NCBI GenBank assembly: GCA_019239915.1
Contig: JAFAZF010000014.1
Coordinates: 62,001-126,000, forward strand
Direction of reading: 5' to 3'
DNA length: 64,000 nucleotides
Source of the DNA: Sphingomonadaceae bacterium
Lineage (GTDB): Bacteria > Pseudomonadota > Alphaproteobacteria > Sphingomonadales > Sphingomonadaceae
The translations under genes and the position numbers were made by a program. The notes below the pieces were generated by a model that worked only from the letters and a program-made list of their open reading frames with translations, was not told the DNA's origin and did no database searches. Positions 40,616 through 48,391 of this stretch are shown here, one piece after another; position 1 is the first letter of the stretch, and every line of letters starts with the position of its first letter.

Positions 40616-41614
40616 ATGCCCGCCCGCCAGCCGCCCGAATGGGCGCCGCACGAAGCCGTCTGGATCGGGTGGCCGAGCCACGAGGAGCTGTGGCTGGAGG
40701 ACCTCGGCCGCGCGCGCCGCGAGGTCGCCGGGTTCGCGCGCGCGGTCCATGCCGAGGGACGCGGCGAACGCGTGATCCTCGTCGCCGCCAACGAGGAGGC
40801 GGAGGCGAGCGCCAAGGCGGTCGGCGTCGATGTCATGACTGCGACGTTCGGCGACGTCTGGTTGCGTGATACCGGTCCCATCGTGGTGCTCGGCGAGCAT
40901 AGCCGCGCCGCGCGCCGCTTCGCGTTCAACGGCTGGGGTGGCAAGTACAACCTCAAGGGCGATCAGACGATCGGCGCAATCCTCGCCGGACGCGCCAACC
41001 TCGCGCTGGTGACGCGCGAATGGGTGCTCGAGGGCGGCGCCATCGACGTCGACGGCACCGGCCTCGCCGTCACCACCGAGCAGTGCCTGCTCAATCCGAA
41101 CCGCAATCCCGAGCTTACCAAGCAGGCGATCGAGCGGCGGCTCGCGGTCGATCTCGGCATCGATCGCGTGCTGTGGCTCGGCGACGGCCTGCTCAACGAC
41201 CATACCGATGGCCACGTCGACAATCTCGCGCGCTTCATCGGCAGGAACCGGCTCGCCATTCCGACGCCGGCGGGGCGCGACGATCCCAACGCGGCGGCGT
41301 TCCGCACCGCCGAGGCGCGCGCGAAACGCTTCGGGGTCGAGGTGGTGCTCGTGCCCTCGCCCGGCCGCGTCGAGCGCGACGGCGAGATCGTGCCCGCCTC
41401 CTACATGAACTTCTACATCGGCAACGCGGCGGTGGTGATCCCGGTCTGGGGTGCGGACAACGACCAGGCGGCGGTCGACGCGATCGGCGCGCTCTTCCCC
41501 GATCGCGACGCGGTCGGCATTCGCAGCGACCATCTGCTCACCGGCGGCGGCAGCTTCCACTGCATCTCGCAGCAATTGCCGACCCGCGATGCGATGAAGG
41601 CGGTCGGGGGATGA
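40616..41614 (+). CDS. aguA: Agmatine deiminase
   Basis: The 332-residue amidinotransferase-fold enzyme converts agmatine to N-carbamoylputrescine and ammonia. It has WPSHEELW near the start, GDVWLRDTGPI, GWGGKYN, LEGGAIDVDGTG, DGHVDNLARF, and the catalytic Cys316 in GGGSFHCISQQ. AGGAGA precedes the ATG. The next gene on the strand, N-carbamoylputrescine amidase, gives the following step; a palindromic repeat lies between them. Confidence 0.95.
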   Translation: MPARQPPEWAPHEAVWIGWPSHEELWLEDLGRARREVAGFARAVHAEGRGERVILVAANEEAEASAKAVGVDVMTATFGDVWLRDTGPIVVLGEHSRAARRFAFNGWGGKYNLKGDQTIGAILAGRANLALVTREWVLEGGAIDVDGTGLAVTTEQCLLNPNRNPELTKQAIERRLAVDLGIDRVLWLGDGLLNDHTDGHVDNLARFIGRNRLAIPTPAGRDDPNAAAFRTAEARAKRFGVEVVLVPSPGRVERDGEIVPASYMNFYIGNAAVVIPVWGADNDQAAVDAIGALFPDRDAVGIRSDHLLTGGGSFHCISQQLPTRDAMKAVGG

Positions 41615-41657
41615 TTTCTCCGGCTCGCGATCTACATTTCGCTTGAAACATTCAGCC

Positions 41658-41750
41658 GTCATTCCCGCGAAGGCGGGAATCCATAGGCCTTGCCCTCGAG
41701 CTTTCACTACAGCGGTTGAGACTATGGATCCCCGCCTGCGCGGGGATGAC
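41658..41750. repeat. Palindromic intergenic repeat (GTCATTCCCGCG family)
   Basis: The left arm GTCATTCCCGCGAAGGCGGG and the right arm, which reads CGGGGATGAC at its end, form a long imperfect palindrome with inner GGATCC-like pairing (ATCCATAG and CTATGGAT). This is a different family from the CCGTTCG repeats, widespread in many proteobacteria. Frames encoding peptides such as DSRLRGNDG here are repeat-derived and not genes. Confidence 0.85.
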
Positions 41751-41778
41751 GAACTTTAGAGCGAGAGCAAGGTTGTCA

Positions 41779-42627
41779 ATGACCGAAGTCACCGTCGCCG
41801 CGCTGCAGCTCGCCTTCGAGGACGATGTCGCGCGCAACATCGCCAACGTCTCCGAGCTGGTGCGCGATGCGGCGGCGCGCGGCGCCCAGGTGATCCTGCC
41901 GCCAGAGCTGTTCGAGGGGCCCTATTTCTGCCGCGTCGAGGACGAGGGACTGTTTGCGACGGCGCAGCCGACCGAGCGGCATCCGTCGGTGCTGGCGATG
42001 CGCGCGCTGGCCGCCGAGCTCGGCGTCCACATCCCCACCAGCTTCTTCGAGTGCGACGGCCCGCACTACTATAACAGCCTGGCGATGATCGGGCCGGATG
42101 GCGCGGTGCAGGGCGTCTACCGCAAGAGCCACATTCCGGACGGACCCGGCTACGAGGAGAAATTCTATTTCCGTCCGGGCAATACCGGCTTCCGCGTCTG
42201 GAAGGATGCGCCGGTGCCGCTCGGCGTCGGCGTCTGCTGGGACCAATGGTATCCGGAGACGGCACGCGCGCTGATGCTGATGGGCGCGGAGATCCTCTTC
42301 TATCCGACCGCGATCGGCGCCGAGCCGCACGACCCCTCGCTCGATACGTCGCGGCTGTGGCGGCGCGCGATGGTCGGTCACGCCGTCTCCAACGTCGTGC
42401 CGGTGGTGGCCGCCAACCGTATCGGCGACGAGGAAGGCCAGCTCTTCTACGGCCACAGCTTCATCTGCGACGAGCGCGGAGACATGCTCACGGAGTTCGG
42501 CGCCAAGGAGACCGGCGCGCTCGTCGCGACGCTCGATCTCGATCGCGTGAAGCGGCACCGCGCCGCGTTCGGCTTCTTCCGCGATCGCCGGCCCGAGCTT
42601 TACGGGCGTCTCGTCGAGGACGTCTAG
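41779..42627 (+). CDS. aguB: N-carbamoylputrescine amidase
   Basis: The 282-residue nitrilase-fold enzyme hydrolyses N-carbamoylputrescine to putrescine, CO2 and ammonia. The triad lies in PELFEGPYFC (Glu), YRKSHIPDGPGYEEKFYF (Lys) and VGVCWDQWYPE (Cys153). The frame extends back to 41716 through a palindromic repeat; the ATG at 41779 gives the family N-terminus MTEVTVAALQ. With agmatine deiminase it completes an arginine-decarboxylase-dependent route to putrescine. Confidence 0.96.
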   Translation: MTEVTVAALQLAFEDDVARNIANVSELVRDAAARGAQVILPPELFEGPYFCRVEDEGLFATAQPTERHPSVLAMRALAAELGVHIPTSFFECDGPHYYNSLAMIGPDGAVQGVYRKSHIPDGPGYEEKFYFRPGNTGFRVWKDAPVPLGVGVCWDQWYPETARALMLMGAEILFYPTAIGAEPHDPSLDTSRLWRRAMVGHAVSNVVPVVAANRIGDEEGQLFYGHSFICDERGDMLTEFGAKETGALVATLDLDRVKRHRAAFGFFRDRRPELYGRLVEDV

Positions 42628-42904: not shown

Positions 42905-45900
42905 ATGAGCAACGACGCGCGCCCGATCTTCTTCGACCAGTCCGGTCGCCGCAAACGGCGCTTCACGATCGGGGTGGTCGCGTTCCTGGCGCTGATCCTG
43001 CTCGCGCTTCTGCTGTTCGTGACCTCGATCGTCGAGGTCGCGCCGCAGCGGCAGCTGCCGTTCGAGGCGGAGCGCACGCCGATCCACGGCGCCCGCGGGC
43101 CGGTCGGCGCGCTCGCGCACGATGCCAAGAAGCGGCTCAATCGCGTGATCCGCGATGCCGGCTGGTTCCTGCCGGGCTCACCCAGCAAGCCGGCGACGCC
43201 CTCCGCGCTCAGCGTCGCCTTCCACGCGCCGTGGGACGATGCCAGCGCCGCCTCGCTGCAGCGCCACGTCAACGATGTCGACTGGCTGATCCCGGCGTGG
43301 ATGTCGGTCAGCGGCCCGCGTTTCACCTTCACCGTCTTTCCGGACGTCCGCGCCCACGAGATCCTCGCCAGCGCGACGCACCGCCCGAAGCTGCTGCCGA
43401 TGGTGCAGGATGCGATCCAGGGTACTTGGGATCCGAAGAACGCCGCCGGGCTGCTCCACGACCCGCGTTCCCGCGCGCGTTTCCTCGATGTGCTCGAGCA
43501 GCAGCTGCTCAGGATGCGCGCCGACGGCGCCTGCTTCGACATCGAGGCGATCCCGCCGAGCGCGCAGGCCGATTATCTCAGGCTGCTGAACGAGGCGAAC
43601 ACGCGGTTCGATCGGCATGGCTGGCTGCTCACCGTGGCGGTGCCGGTCGGGGATCCCGACTGGAACCTCAAGGCCTATGCGGCGATCGCCGACAAGATCT
43701 TCCTGATGGCCTATGACGAGCATGACGACAGCGGCGATCCCGGCCCGATCGCGAGCCAGGGCTGGTTTATCCAGACCGTCGCGCATGCGCTGCAGGGCGT
43801 GCCGCGCGACAAGGTCGTCGTCGCGCTGGGCTCCTATTCCTATGACTGGGGCAAGGGCGTCGACACCGACACGCTCTCGGTCGAGGATGCGTGGCTGCGC
43901 GCGCACGAGTCGAATACCATCCCGAGCTTCGACAAGGCGAGCGCCAACTCGGTCTACGATTATGACGAGAACGGCGTCCATCACGAGGTCTGGATCGAGG
44001 ACGCCGCGACGATCGCCAACGAGATGGCGATCCTGCGCCGCTCGGGCCTCCAAGGCTTCGCACTGTGGCGGCTCGGCACCGAGGATCCGTCGATCTGGGA
44101 GCTCTTCGGTCGCGCCCATGCCAACGGCGCCGACCCACGCACGATCCGCGCGATCCCGGCCGGCACCGACGTCGACATCGAAGGCTCGGGCGAGATATTG
44201 CGCGTCGGCTCGGTGCCGGTGCCGGGCTTCCGCGATGTCGCGCTCGACAACCACGGACTAATCGCGGACCTCCGCTTCACCCAGCTTCCGCTGCCCTATA
44301 CGATCGAACGCGCGGGCTATCGGCCGGGCTATGTCGCGCTGACGTTCGACGACGGGCCCGACGCCAACTTCACGCCGAAGATCCTCGATATTCTGAGGGC
44401 CAAGGGGGTGCACGCCACCTTCTTCATCATCGGCGAAAACGCGCTCACCAACCGCGGCCTGCTCAATCGGCTCGTCGCCGAGGGCCACGAGATCGGCAAC
44501 CACACCTACACCCATCCCAATCTCGGCCGCATGACGACCGGCGAAACCGATCTCGAACTCAACGCCACGCAGCGCCTCTTCCAGGCCTTCACCGGCCGAT
44601 CGATGCGGCTGTTCCGCGCGCCCTATTTCGGTGACGCCGAGCCGACCACGGCGGACGAGATCGACGCGGTGTGGCGCGGCCAGCAGCTCGGCTATCTCTC
44701 CGTCGGCCTCCATGTCGACGCCCAGGATTGGCAGCGCCCGGGCGTGCCCGCGATCATCCGCAACGTCATGGACGGCGTCGCCTCCGACGACCCGGATCGC
44801 AGCGCGCAGGTGGTGCTGCTCCACGATTCGGGCGGCGACCGGCGCCAGACGATCGAGGCGCTGCCGACGATCATCGATCAGCTGCGCGCGAAGGGCTACA
44901 AGTTCGTCACCGCCTCGCAGTTGATCGGCCTCACGCAGGATCAGGTGATGCCGCGCATCGCGGCGAGCGACCGGCTGGCGGCGCGCATGAACCTCGCGCT
45001 GTTCAGCACGCTCGGCTTCATCGTCCAGGCGCTGCACTGGCTGTTCGCGATCGCGATCTCGGTCGGCATTGCGCGTTCGGTGCTGCTCTCGGCGCTGGCG
45101 CTGTGGCAGGCGCGGCGCGAGAACCGCACCGTCTTCCCGCCGATCGATCCGGATCGCTTCGTCTCGGTGCTGATTCCCGCCTTCAACGAGGCGCGCGTGA
45201 TCGAGCGATCGGTGCGGCGCGTGCTCGACAGCCGCGACGTCGAGATCGAGGTGATCGTGATCGACGACGGTTCGAAGGACGAAACCAGCGCGATCGTCCG
45301 CGCCGCCTTTGCCGACGAGCCGCGCGTCCGCCTGCTCACGCTCGAGAATGGCGGCAAGGCGCGTGCGCTCAACCAGGGGCTGCTGCTCGCACGCGGCGAG
45401 ATCGTGATCGCGCTCGACGCCGACACCCAGTTCGAGCCGACGACGATCGCGCGGCTGGCGCGCTGGTTCGTCGATCCGACGATCGGCGCGGTGGCGGGCA
45501 ACGCCAAGGTCGGCAATCGCATCAATCTCGTCACGCGCTGGCAGGCGCTCGAATATGTCACCGCGCAGAATCTCGAGCGGCGCGCGCTCGCCGCGCTCGG
45601 CGCGATGACGGTCGTGCCCGGCGCGGTCGGCGCATGGCGTGCCGCGACGCTGCGCGAGATCGGCGGGTACCCGTCGGATACACTGGCCGAGGATCAGGAC
45701 CTCACCATCGCGATCCAGCGCGCCGGCTGGGACGTGCGCTACGATCAATATGCGGTGGCGTGGACCGAGGCGCCCGAGAACGCCGCCGGGCTCGCCAAGC
45801 AGCGCTTCCGCTGGGCGTTCGGAACGCTACAATGCCTGTGGAAGCATCGCGCGGTGATGGCGAAAGGCAAGCCACGGGGCCTCGCCTATATCGGCCTGCC

Positions 45901-46267
45901 GCAGGCGATCCTGTTCCAGATCGGCTTCGCTGCGATCTCGCCGGTGATCGACCTCGCGCTGATCGTGAACATCGCCGGCACCTACATCTCGGTGCACGAG
46001 CATGGCTGGGCGGCGACGCAGACCGATCTCTACAAGATGCTGATCTATTGGCTGCTGTTCACGATGATCGATGTGCTTTCGGGCGTGATCGCCTTCGCGC
46101 TCGAGCGACACGAGCGCTGGCGGCTGCTCGCGCTGATGATCCCGCAGCGCGTCGGCTATCGCCAGATCATGTATTATGTCGTGCTGAAGGCGCTGGCGCA
46201 GGCCGCACGGGGTCCGCGCGTCGGCTGGGGCAAGCTCGAGCGGAGCGGGCGTGTCGAGGCCGCCTGA
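42905..46267 (+). CDS. Fusion protein: GH18-like domain, NodB polysaccharide deacetylase and GT2 glycosyltransferase
   Basis: The 1120-residue membrane protein has four parts. A membrane anchor (about 20-42). A GH18-like region (about 100-400) with DGACFDIEA, placing the catalytic acid near Glu213, and LMAYDEHDD near 268. A NodB deacetylase (about 475-650) with LTFDDGPDANF and HTYTHP metal ligands. Then a span near 690-715 and a GT2 domain (about 750-1000) with SVLIPAFNE, IDDGSKDET, ALDADTQF, AEDQD and KQRFRW, followed by C-terminal spans. GT2 is PgaC/HAS-like, suggesting synthesis, deacetylation and trimming of an N-acetylhexosamine polymer. It overlaps the next gene. Confidence 0.93.
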   Translation: MSNDARPIFFDQSGRRKRRFTIGVVAFLALILLALLLFVTSIVEVAPQRQLPFEAERTPIHGARGPVGALAHDAKKRLNRVIRDAGWFLPGSPSKPATPSALSVAFHAPWDDASAASLQRHVNDVDWLIPAWMSVSGPRFTFTVFPDVRAHEILASATHRPKLLPMVQDAIQGTWDPKNAAGLLHDPRSRARFLDVLEQQLLRMRADGACFDIEAIPPSAQADYLRLLNEANTRFDRHGWLLTVAVPVGDPDWNLKAYAAIADKIFLMAYDEHDDSGDPGPIASQGWFIQTVAHALQGVPRDKVVVALGSYSYDWGKGVDTDTLSVEDAWLRAHESNTIPSFDKASANSVYDYDENGVHHEVWIEDAATIANEMAILRRSGLQGFALWRLGTEDPSIWELFGRAHANGADPRTIRAIPAGTDVDIEGSGEILRVGSVPVPGFRDVALDNHGLIADLRFTQLPLPYTIERAGYRPGYVALTFDDGPDANFTPKILDILRAKGVHATFFIIGENALTNRGLLNRLVAEGHEIGNHTYTHPNLGRMTTGETDLELNATQRLFQAFTGRSMRLFRAPYFGDAEPTTADEIDAVWRGQQLGYLSVGLHVDAQDWQRPGVPAIIRNVMDGVASDDPDRSAQVVLLHDSGGDRRQTIEALPTIIDQLRAKGYKFVTASQLIGLTQDQVMPRIAASDRLAARMNLALFSTLGFIVQALHWLFAIAISVGIARSVLLSALALWQARRENRTVFPPIDPDRFVSVLIPAFNEARVIERSVRRVLDSRDVEIEVIVIDDGSKDETSAIVRAAFADEPRVRLLTLENGGKARALNQGLLLARGEIVIALDADTQFEPTTIARLARWFVDPTIGAVAGNAKVGNRINLVTRWQALEYVTAQNLERRALAALGAMTVVPGAVGAWRAATLREIGGYPSDTLAEDQDLTIAIQRAGWDVRYDQYAVAWTEAPENAAGLAKQRFRWAFGTLQCLWKHRAVMAKGKPRGLAYIGLPQAILFQIGFAAISPVIDLALIVNIAGTYISVHEHGWAATQTDLYKMLIYWLLFTMIDVLSGVIAFALERHERWRLLALMIPQRVGYRQIMYYVVLKALAQAARGPRVGWGKLERSGRVEAA

Positions 46268-47648
46268 GCCGACCGCCGCGCCCGTTCCCGCCCCGGCCCT
46301 TCCTGCCTGGCTCATCCCCGCGCTGATCGCGGCGCTCGCCACCTGCCAGATCGCGACGTTCCGCTGGGGCGTGATCATGCCCGACGCGGTCGTCCAATAT
46401 GGTCAAGCGCTGTCCGGCGATTATGGCGACTGGCATCCGCCGGTGATGGCGTGGCTCTGGCGCTGGCTGGGCGCGGCGCGCTTCGGCTCGGCGCCGATGC
46501 TGCTCCTCCAGGTCTCGCTCTACTGGCTGGGGCTCGGCCTGATCGCCGACGGGCTGCGGCGCGCATGGCCGGAGCGGCGCTGGTGGCCGCTGCTCCCGAT
46601 CCTGATCGGCGCGCTGCCGATCCCGTTCGGCCAGCTCGCCGCGGTGCTCAAGGACAGCCAGCTCGCCGCCTGCCTGCTCGCGGCGAGCGGTATCGCGATC
46701 TGGCACGCACTGCAGGGCCGCACGATGCGCTGGCCGGCGCGCGTGGCGATCGCGGTACTCGTCGTCATCGCCGCGGCGGCGCGGTTCAACGCGCCGTTTG
46801 CAGGTGCGCCGGTGCTGCTGCTCGCGCTGCCGCGGCCGCCGCGCGGACCGATCTGTATGATTGTTGCGGCACTGCCGGCGATCGCGCTGCTGTTCGCGAC
46901 CGCTGTGCTGATCAACCAGCTGATGTTGCAACCGCGCGCCCAGCGGCCGATGCTCAGCCTCGTCAATTTCGATCTTGCTGGCATCAGCCTGCGCAGCGGC
47001 ACGAACGTCTATCCGCCGGCGGCGCGGCCGACGATGGTGTTGCTCGCACGATGCTATTCGCCGGCGAGCTTCAATCCGCACTACGCGGCCGATTGCGACA
47101 CGGTCGAAGGCGGGCTCCATCAGCGCTACGACGCGCAAGGCGGCGCGCTGCCGGTCTGGCTCGGCGCGATCGCGCATCATCCGCTCGCCTACGCCAGGCA
47201 TCGGCTCGCGCACTTCAACGTCAACCAGCGTTTCGCCGTCGCGCATGTGCCGGACGACGCCGTCTTCATCGCCACCACTCCGAACGATCTCGGCCTCTTC
47301 TTCAAGGCAGGCCCGGCGACGCTGGGCATCTATCATGTCGCGACCTGGCTTGCCTGGTCGCCGCTCGGCCGTCCGGCGACGTGGCTGGTCGTCGCGCTTG
47401 GCGTCTTGCTGTGCACCGGCAGCGTCCCGGCTCGCCTGCTCGCGCTTTCGGCGCTGCTCTATGGCGCCGGTTACGCCATGGTCAGCGTCGCGCCGGACCT
47501 GCGTTACAATCTCTGGACGTTGCTTGCCGCGATGCTCGCGCTGCTGATCGGATGGGACACGATGTCGCCCCGCCAGCGGTTGTTCGGCGTCGCGCTGCCG
47601 GCCGGCTTCGCAATGATGGCGGAGCTCATCGCGCTCTTCACGGCCTGA
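46251..47648 (+). CDS. Polytopic membrane protein, GT-C-like
   Basis: The 465-residue protein has about 10 or more hydrophobic segments and an early loop with DAVVQYGQ and GDYGDWHPPVMAWLW, resembling the acidic loop of GT-C/GT39 membrane glycosyltransferases that use polyprenyl-linked sugars. The region near 250-330 is a large soluble loop with two Cys (ARCYSPASF, AADCDTVEGG). The start is GTG at 46251, 17 nt inside the preceding gene, so it is coupled to the polysaccharide fusion enzyme and may transfer sugars to or within that product. No specific substrate can be named. Confidence 0.7.
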   Translation: MSRPPEPTAAPVPAPALPAWLIPALIAALATCQIATFRWGVIMPDAVVQYGQALSGDYGDWHPPVMAWLWRWLGAARFGSAPMLLLQVSLYWLGLGLIADGLRRAWPERRWWPLLPILIGALPIPFGQLAAVLKDSQLAACLLAASGIAIWHALQGRTMRWPARVAIAVLVVIAAAARFNAPFAGAPVLLLALPRPPRGPICMIVAALPAIALLFATAVLINQLMLQPRAQRPMLSLVNFDLAGISLRSGTNVYPPAARPTMVLLARCYSPASFNPHYAADCDTVEGGLHQRYDAQGGALPVWLGAIAHHPLAYARHRLAHFNVNQRFAVAHVPDDAVFIATTPNDLGLFFKAGPATLGIYHVATWLAWSPLGRPATWLVVALGVLLCTGSVPARLLALSALLYGAGYAMVSVAPDLRYNLWTLLAAMLALLIGWDTMSPRQRLFGVALPAGFAMMAELIALFTA

Positions 47649-47806: not shown

Positions 47807-48391
47807 ATGCGGAAATATTGGACGGCGGCGATCGGCGCCGCCGTGCTGGCGTCGGCTGCCGTCGCGACGCCGGCGAACGCCCAGAGCTGGCAGTGCGCCA
47901 CGTTCGCGCGCGCCTTTTCGGGGCTTCAGCTGTTCGGCCGTGCCGCCGGATGGTGGAAGCAGGCGGTAGGCAAATATGCCGAGGGCGCGATGCCGCAGCT
48001 CGGCTCGGTGCTCGTGTTCCGTGCCGGCCACGCGATGGGCGCCGGCCATGTCGCCACGGTCACCCAGATCATCAGCAACCGGGTCATCGCGGTCACGCAT
48101 GCCAACTGGTCGCCGATCGACGGCCATCGCGGTCAGATCGAGCGCGACGTCACCATCGAGGACACCTCGGCGAACAACGACTGGAGCGAGGTCAAGGTCT
48201 GGTACGCGCCGCTACAGGATCTCGGCACCAAATCCTACCGCACCTACGGCTTTATCTATGCGCCGCGGCCGTCGGCGCCGACGCGGCCGCGCGCGCCGCT
48301 GCTGATAGCGGAGACGTCGCGCACATTGCCGGCGGCGTCGCTTGCCGATCCGGTCGCGGTGCCGGGCTTTACCGCGCGGCACAGCGCCTGA
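47807..48391 (+). CDS. Secreted CHAP-domain protein (putative peptidoglycan amidase/endopeptidase)
   Basis: The 194-residue protein has a signal peptide ending near ANAQS and a CHAP domain with catalytic Cys in WQCATFAR, His in GAGHVATVTQI, and the later NWS/DW region. The C-terminal 60 residues are Pro/Ala-rich. CHAP domains cleave cell-wall peptides, so it is probably a secreted or periplasmic wall hydrolase. It follows the polysaccharide synthesis pair by 158 bp and could be linked to envelope remodelling, though it may have its own promoter. Confidence 0.88.
   Translation: MRKYWTAAIGAAVLASAAVATPANAQSWQCATFARAFSGLQLFGRAAGWWKQAVGKYAEGAMPQLGSVLVFRAGHAMGAGHVATVTQIISNRVIAVTHANWSPIDGHRGQIERDVTIEDTSANNDWSEVKVWYAPLQDLGTKSYRTYGFIYAPRPSAPTRPRAPLLIAETSRTLPAASLADPVAVPGFTARHSA

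Follow-up and report, generated by a model that had tools for sequence, protein, structure and literature searches.

A GH18-CE4-GT2 fusion protein of a Sphingomonadaceae bacterium as a putative all-in-one synthase of a GlcNAc-type polymer

This study concerned a gene pair on a 64,000-nucleotide (nt) stretch of DNA, hereafter the window, from contig JAFAZF010000014.1 (contig C33; positions 62,001 to 126,000) of a Sphingomonadaceae bacterium, whose draft genome comprises 3.6 Mb at 98% completeness. The first gene encodes a fusion protein that carries, in this order within a single chain, a glycoside hydrolase domain of family GH18, a NodB-type deacetylase domain of family CE4 and a glycosyltransferase domain of family GT2, and the second gene encodes a membrane protein whose predicted fold resembles GT-C glycosyltransferases. 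We consider it fairly probable that the fusion protein is an all-in-one inner-membrane synthase, which makes, deacetylates and trims a polymer of the N-acetylglucosamine (GlcNAc) type. This reading is supported by the three domains themselves, by the conservation of their catalytic residues, by a predicted topology that is coherent and by the widely kept order GH18-CE4-GT2.

In the proposed mechanism, the cytoplasmic GT2 domain would polymerise an N-acetylhexosamine, most likely GlcNAc from uridine diphosphate GlcNAc (UDP-GlcNAc), and the growing chain would pass through the C-terminal membrane helices of the fusion protein itself. The periplasmic CE4 domain, held between the first and second transmembrane segments (TM1 and TM2), would strip acetyl groups from the chain, and the neighbouring periplasmic GH18 domain would cut or release it. 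A common polymer substrate for the three domains is plausible, and we infer that their activities meet on one chain, built of GlcNAc, and yield a polymer or oligomer that has lost part of its acetyl groups. A single-gene polymer system of this kind, in which no readable row of our alignment departs from the tested catalytic residues, would be an easy model for the timing of synthesis, deacetylation and cleavage on one chain. The features of the gene pair are as follows.

42905..46267, + strand: GH18-CE4-GT2 fusion gene, ATG start, 1120 amino acids (aa) (open reading frame, Pfam, alignment with 107 homologues)
42947..43033, + strand: TM1, residues 15-43, N terminus predicted inside (hydropathy 3.06, model helix)
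43208..44161, + strand: GH18 domain, residues 102-419, DGACFDIE at 207-214 (Pfam, profile bounds, folds of SleL, YdhD and chitinases)
44171..44314, + strand: small beta-strand region linking GH18 and CE4, residues 423-470 (secondary structure of the model)
44315..44929, + strand: NodB/PgdA-type CE4 deacetylase, residues ~471-675 (Pfam, PDB sequence match, invariant motifs)
44963..45127, + strand: TM2, one continuous predicted helix, residues 687-741 (model; hydropathy peaks at 696-714 and 713-731)
45149..45868, + strand: GT2 catalytic domain, residues ~749-988, with DDGS, DAD, ED and QRFRW (Pfam, NCBIfam, motifs, folds of hyaluronan synthase and PcManGT)
45875..46210, + strand: predicted C-terminal membrane and interface helices, residues 991-1102 (model, hydropathy)
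46251..47648, + strand: putative GT-C-like integral membrane protein gene, GTG start, 465 aa (open reading frame, Shine-Dalgarno-like GGAG, predicted fold of Pmt, EmbB and ArnT)

Domains, catalytic residues and predicted topology

An earlier note, made from the DNA letters, had placed the gene pair at 42905-47648; both open reading frames are present as it gave them, and their coordinates give the overlap of 17 nt that it had reported. Its description of three domains in one 1120-residue polypeptide was borne out by Pfam matches above the curated cut-offs for Glyco_hydro_18 (E 6.6e-17, residues 183-391), Polysacc_deac_1 (E 4.2e-33, residues 474-574) and Glycos_transf_2 (E 9.6e-31, residues 754-880).

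To evaluate residue conservation, we aligned the window protein and 107 homologues (108 rows); the homologues were picked as the best whole-protein matches, a choice that under-represents rows lacking a domain. The textbook GH18 motif is DxxDxDxE; the window protein reads DGACFDIE, in which D212 and E214 are invariant (108/108 rows) and the first Asp is kept in 12 of the 108 rows, while the position of the middle Asp is Cys in the window protein and shows no Asp among its seven commonest letters (104/108 rows). The further GH18 residue Y270 is Tyr in 103 rows and Phe in five. In the CE4 domain, D482, D483, H533, H537, R571, D605, D608, W609 and H640 are invariant throughout, and the NodB metal ligands D483, H533 and H537 are thus all present in the window protein. 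The GT2 motifs DDG and DAD are likewise invariant in all 108 rows, as are ED and QRxRW in the 106 readable rows, the latter being QRFRW in the window protein. These data agree with the earlier claim that the DxxxxDxE motif, the NodB ligands and QxxRW are intact, and the catalytic residues proved to be retained, rather than lost, in most homologues. Judged from its sequence, the fusion protein is real, and the catalytic residues of all three domains are kept.

Concerning the topology, an AlphaFold2 model of the fusion protein was obtained from 53 sequences with a mean predicted local distance difference test score (pLDDT) of 89.6 and a predicted template modelling score (pTM) of 0.74. From the N terminus onwards, the model shows a helix (residues 15-43), an extracytoplasmic half, a single helix (687-741), the core of GT2 and, at the C-terminal end, three further helices. 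The TM1 hydropathy peak covers residues 21-39, with six Lys or Arg residues before it and one after it; a hydrophobic segment within the first 130 residues is found in 105 of the 108 rows, and a transmembrane-like peak between residues 110 and 676 in seven. Among the best 50 PDB fold matches of the model, the GH18 part matched SleL, YdhD and chitinases, the CE4 part Bc1960, and the GT2 part hyaluronan synthase and PcManGT. The GH18 and CE4 domains are predicted to lie outside and the GT2 domain inside, linked through the transmembrane segment. The earlier note had proposed examining whether the deacetylase and hydrolase stand on the wrong side of the membrane from the product; hydropathy and model both place them, by prediction, on the product side. 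At the same threshold, the hydropathy peaks preceding the GT2 core number two in PgaC of Escherichia coli, one in IcaA and none in NodC, and the fusion protein may represent a synthase like PgaC in which GH18 and CE4 occupy the loop that joins the first and second membrane helices. The double peak at TM2 in the window protein and in 53 of the 108 rows speaks against this view.

Distribution and earlier record of the architecture

Homologues that match across GH18, CE4 and GT2 were found in at least six phyla. In a scan of named-species genomes, the best 80 of 585 relatives include Acidobacteria, Gemmatimonadetes, gammaproteobacteria and a Bacillus, and the closest named relatives among these matches are Sphingomonas and other Sphingomonadaceae. 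With the own genome counted in each set, the fusion was present in 33 of 199 genomes of the window's family (E 1e-50 or better) and in 9 of 398 genomes of the phylum sample (E 1e-70 or better). As far as sequence searches indicate, the fusion is spread wide but thin across bacteria.

Plasmids also carry such genes: in 22 of the 26 matching plasmid records, the match extends over 80% or more of the query. The GH18 profile was matched as well in the fusions of Deinococcus, Prevotella and Sulfitobacter, and the matches of Kocuria and Streptomyces span CE4-GT2 only. On the Kocuria rosea plasmid (locus L138, 3668-6973), a CE4-GT2 gene without GH18 converges on a separate gene whose annotation is chitinase; the arrangement looks as if the fusion were split. 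A further record (L011), titled Arthrobacter sp. TPD3018, holds a protein of the Sphingomonas kind with 62% identity and is perhaps a mislabelled genome.

The architecture "GH18-CE4-GT2" was tabulated in 2012 (PMC3413522; this and the other articles cited were available in part, and statements drawn from them refer to those parts). The protein listed there, ZP_09465738 of Acetivibrio cellulolyticus, agrees with the window fusion in its three catalytic modules and in their order; it comes from another organism, is listed without functional study and is likened to the window fusion by that listing, not by sequence. For the joined term, our literature search found no source besides PMC3413522, and looser searches added nothing; the available parts of PMC4928363, PMC4125193 and PMC8954581 contain nothing on the architecture, and a search for a Sphingomonas link found no paper. 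The GH18-CE4-GT2 fusion is a known and common kind of protein, whose function is apparently unstudied. The occurrence in at least six phyla and the 2012 listing contradict the unusualness that the earlier note had implied.

The product and competing explanations

Among the NCBIfam models, PgaC/IcaA was the top match of the GT2 domain at 186.1 bits, and NodC reached 94.5 bits; the GT2 profile of the fusion family itself gave 181 bits for PgaC, 161 for IcaA and 123-137 for NodC. For CE4, the top PDB sequence match is 5o6y (E 1.8e-33), and the closest relatives of solved structure are peptidoglycan GlcNAc deacetylases; for GH18, the top folds are those of SleL/YdhD and of chitinases. A mixed resemblance of this type is known from MatB of Streptomyces, a protein with an extracellular CE4 and an intracellular GT2 domain that is required for poly-N-acetylglucosamine (PNAG), its GT2 being closest to PgaC and its CE4 closest to PgdA and NodB (PMC5972031). 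Like the window fusion, whose topology is predicted, MatB joins CE4 across the membrane to GT2; unlike it, MatB has two functional domains, lacks GH18 and works with MatA. The comparison with MatB follows its published description, and a CE4-GT2 protein of another Streptomyces served as the sequence. The CE4-GT2 gene of Kocuria, with its neighbouring annotated chitinase gene, is a second precedent.

Several observations weigh against the synthase reading. The GT2 domain falls far under the PgaC_IcaA cut-off (186.1 vs 422.3 bits). The CE4 profile of the family matches NodB (143 and 135 bits) and neither PgaB of E. coli nor IcaB of Staphylococcus; therefore, the periplasmic half differs from the PNAG type that is known. 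In the own genome, 98% complete, PgaD was not found, with E. coli positive among the controls, and PgaA gave four weak matches of at most 27 bits vs a cut-off of 366.65, which one control genome exceeded. The search of the genome for these two proteins thus returned nothing above cut-off, and therefore no pga-type export route is known there. The GT2 tree (27 rows including PgaC, IcaA and NodC; midpoint-rooted, bootstrap not settled) puts PgaC and IcaA across the drawn root (60/87); NodC, whose branch measures 4.74, is placed within the fusion proteins, a placement that lacks support. The tree is not decisive and, if anything, separates PgaC/IcaA from the fusions. E. coli BcsA, which matched the family profile over a short stretch only, was left out of this tree. 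Finally, hydropathy shows two overlapping peaks at TM2 in the window protein and likewise in 53 of the 108 rows, with which two crossings may be compatible, whereas the model has one helix. From the PgaC/IcaA scores of the GT2 domain, the NodB-like CE4 domain and the link of the MatB mixture to PNAG, and with the tree indecisive, the product is likely a GlcNAc polymer.

An alternative is that the fusion makes chitosan oligomers and is no biofilm polymer synthase: the GT2 domain would produce short beta-1,4-GlcNAc oligosaccharides as NodC does, CE4 would deacetylate them as NodB does, and GH18 would trim them. The NodB matches of the CE4 profile, the unsupported position of NodC among the fusion proteins and the names of the PDB relatives of CE4 and GH18, which are peptidoglycan and chitin enzymes, are consistent with it. 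However, the GT2 domain favours PgaC/IcaA over NodC by both sets of scores, and MatB, with the same mixed resemblance, is linked to PNAG (PMC5972031), so that we regard this alternative as unlikely. In rhizobia, NodB and NodC similarly comprise a NodB-fold deacetylase and a GlcNAc transferase; in contrast to the window fusion they are separate proteins, and NodC ranks under PgaC against the family GT2 profile.

It is more doubtful still that GH18 and CE4 together form a module for remodelling peptidoglycan (SleL- and PgdA-like), tethered to a synthase of an unrelated polymer with which it shares its place and not its substrate. The best GH18 fold is the spore cortex-lytic SleL, and the best CE4 match is the peptidoglycan deacetylase Bc1960, but the three-domain order is conserved across phyla, and a CE4-GT2 gene adjoining a separate annotated chitinase gene favours a single pathway.

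Compared with pgaABCD of E. coli, the window fusion has a PgaC-like GT2 domain, and its joining of deacetylase and hydrolase has a parallel in PgaB, which in E. coli K-12 combines a deacetylase and a beta-1,6 glycoside hydrolase in one protein (annotation; PMC7112194). The earlier note had set the fusion apart from pga systems as having these activities on separate proteins; the contrast stands for the synthase, which is a separate pga gene, and fails for the deacetylase and hydrolase. Unlike in pgaABCD, the window genome yielded no PgaD and no PgaA above cut-off, and PgaB is not matched by the family CE4 profile. Glycosyltransferase-deacetylase fusions in Gram-negatives without detectable PgaA and PgaD have been described (PMC7112194).

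Genes near the fusion

In the fetched flanks of 107 related loci, an MprF-like gene was found at 11, a VirJ/AcvB-like gene at eight and either or both at 13, with one member of each cluster checked by Pfam and flank lengths varying among loci; if counting is restricted to the 61 loci whose flanks reach 5 kb or more on each side, the counts are nine and seven. In the annotated example, a Sphingomonas parapaucimobilis plasmid (L145, 7041-16814), the order is AcvB/VirJ, fusion, sensor kinase, response regulator, hypothetical gene and mprF, the AcvB/VirJ gene being a lysyl-phosphatidylglycerol hydrolase by annotation. Lysyl-phosphatidylglycerol is under the control of AcvB and LpiA, and Agrobacterium that has lost AcvB is impaired in growth at low pH (PMC13197417).

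From these neighbours it might be supposed, compatibly with the synthase reading, that in some lineages the fusion helps to set the surface charge of the envelope together with lysyl-phosphatidylglycerol metabolism, as a stress response. Against this stand the lack of MprF or AcvB genes in the window's neighbourhood and the relatedness of the genomes, whose loci are hence not independent and whose counts carry no chance expectation. A VirJ search of the own genome was negative, a result of no weight, since none of its controls gave a match. The MprF C-terminal domain had no match in the window genome; therefore, the link is not directly applicable there, and we give this explanation a low probability. 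Somewhat less improbable, and proposed tentatively, is a self-contained machine that carries one GlcNAc chain from synthesis through deacetylation to cleavage, needs no partner resembling PgaA or PgaD and, in some sphingomonads and Gemmatimonadota, is tied to MprF, AcvB and a two-component system in setting a positive envelope charge. Where relatives have lysyl-phosphatidylglycerol genes beside the fusion, these genes hint at the phenotype that might be sought.

The second gene of the pair is preceded by a GGAG motif that ends 5 nt from its GTG start. Its resemblance to lipid-linked sugar transferases, suggested by the earlier note, appears in the predicted fold of a low-confidence model (pLDDT 62.9, three sequences) and not in Pfam or NCBIfam, where the protein has no match. 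In the fold search, the best entry reached Z 12.7 (root-mean-square deviation 5.6, 304 aligned), a value that, for a low-confidence model and below about Z 13, may reflect a common helical arrangement only. The top 38 entries are GT-C-type by title, with the chain deduced in some large complexes and the class presumed by us in part, after which scores drop to Z 5.6 and below. The likeness to Pmt, ArnT and EmbB is thus one of predicted fold. Among 18 relatives of the protein, one gave a PMT_2 match in Pfam, a weak one (0.014). DNA polymerases, at E 0.77 and above, were the sole PDB matches of the profile of its family and were rejected.

Conservation of the pair, on which the coupling proposed in the earlier note depends, was examined in the 98 other loci whose sequence continues for 1400 nt or more downstream of the fusion. 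Relatives of the GT-C-like gene adjoin it in five, with start overlaps of 17, 14 and 14 nt in three and gaps of ~317 and ~362 nt in two; at L093, one of these five, the locus ends within the gene, and a match at L051 (30 residues, E 8e-4) was excluded from the count as too short. The coupling is kept in a few close relatives, and pairing as a general feature of the fusion was rejected. Of 60 related genomes, 11 hold further relatives of the second gene, one of the 11 being the own genome. The gene may be an accessory specific to this lineage, whose product would perhaps attach a sugar from a lipid carrier to the same surface glycan.

The own genome also holds a second GT-C-like copy, 42% identical (L125, C67:174327-175568). 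At seven loci (L056, L060, L064, L066, L076, L080 and L082), another membrane-protein gene lies near the fusion, divergent and upstream in five; that of L066, the one of the seven checked by Pfam, is PMT_2. In the window, the fusion gene is preceded at 40616-42627 by a carbon-nitrogen hydrolase gene (PF00795) and a gene that we take to be agmatine-deiminase-like, and the gene pair is followed on the same strand, at 47807-48391, by a gene for a small CHAP-domain protein (Pfam).

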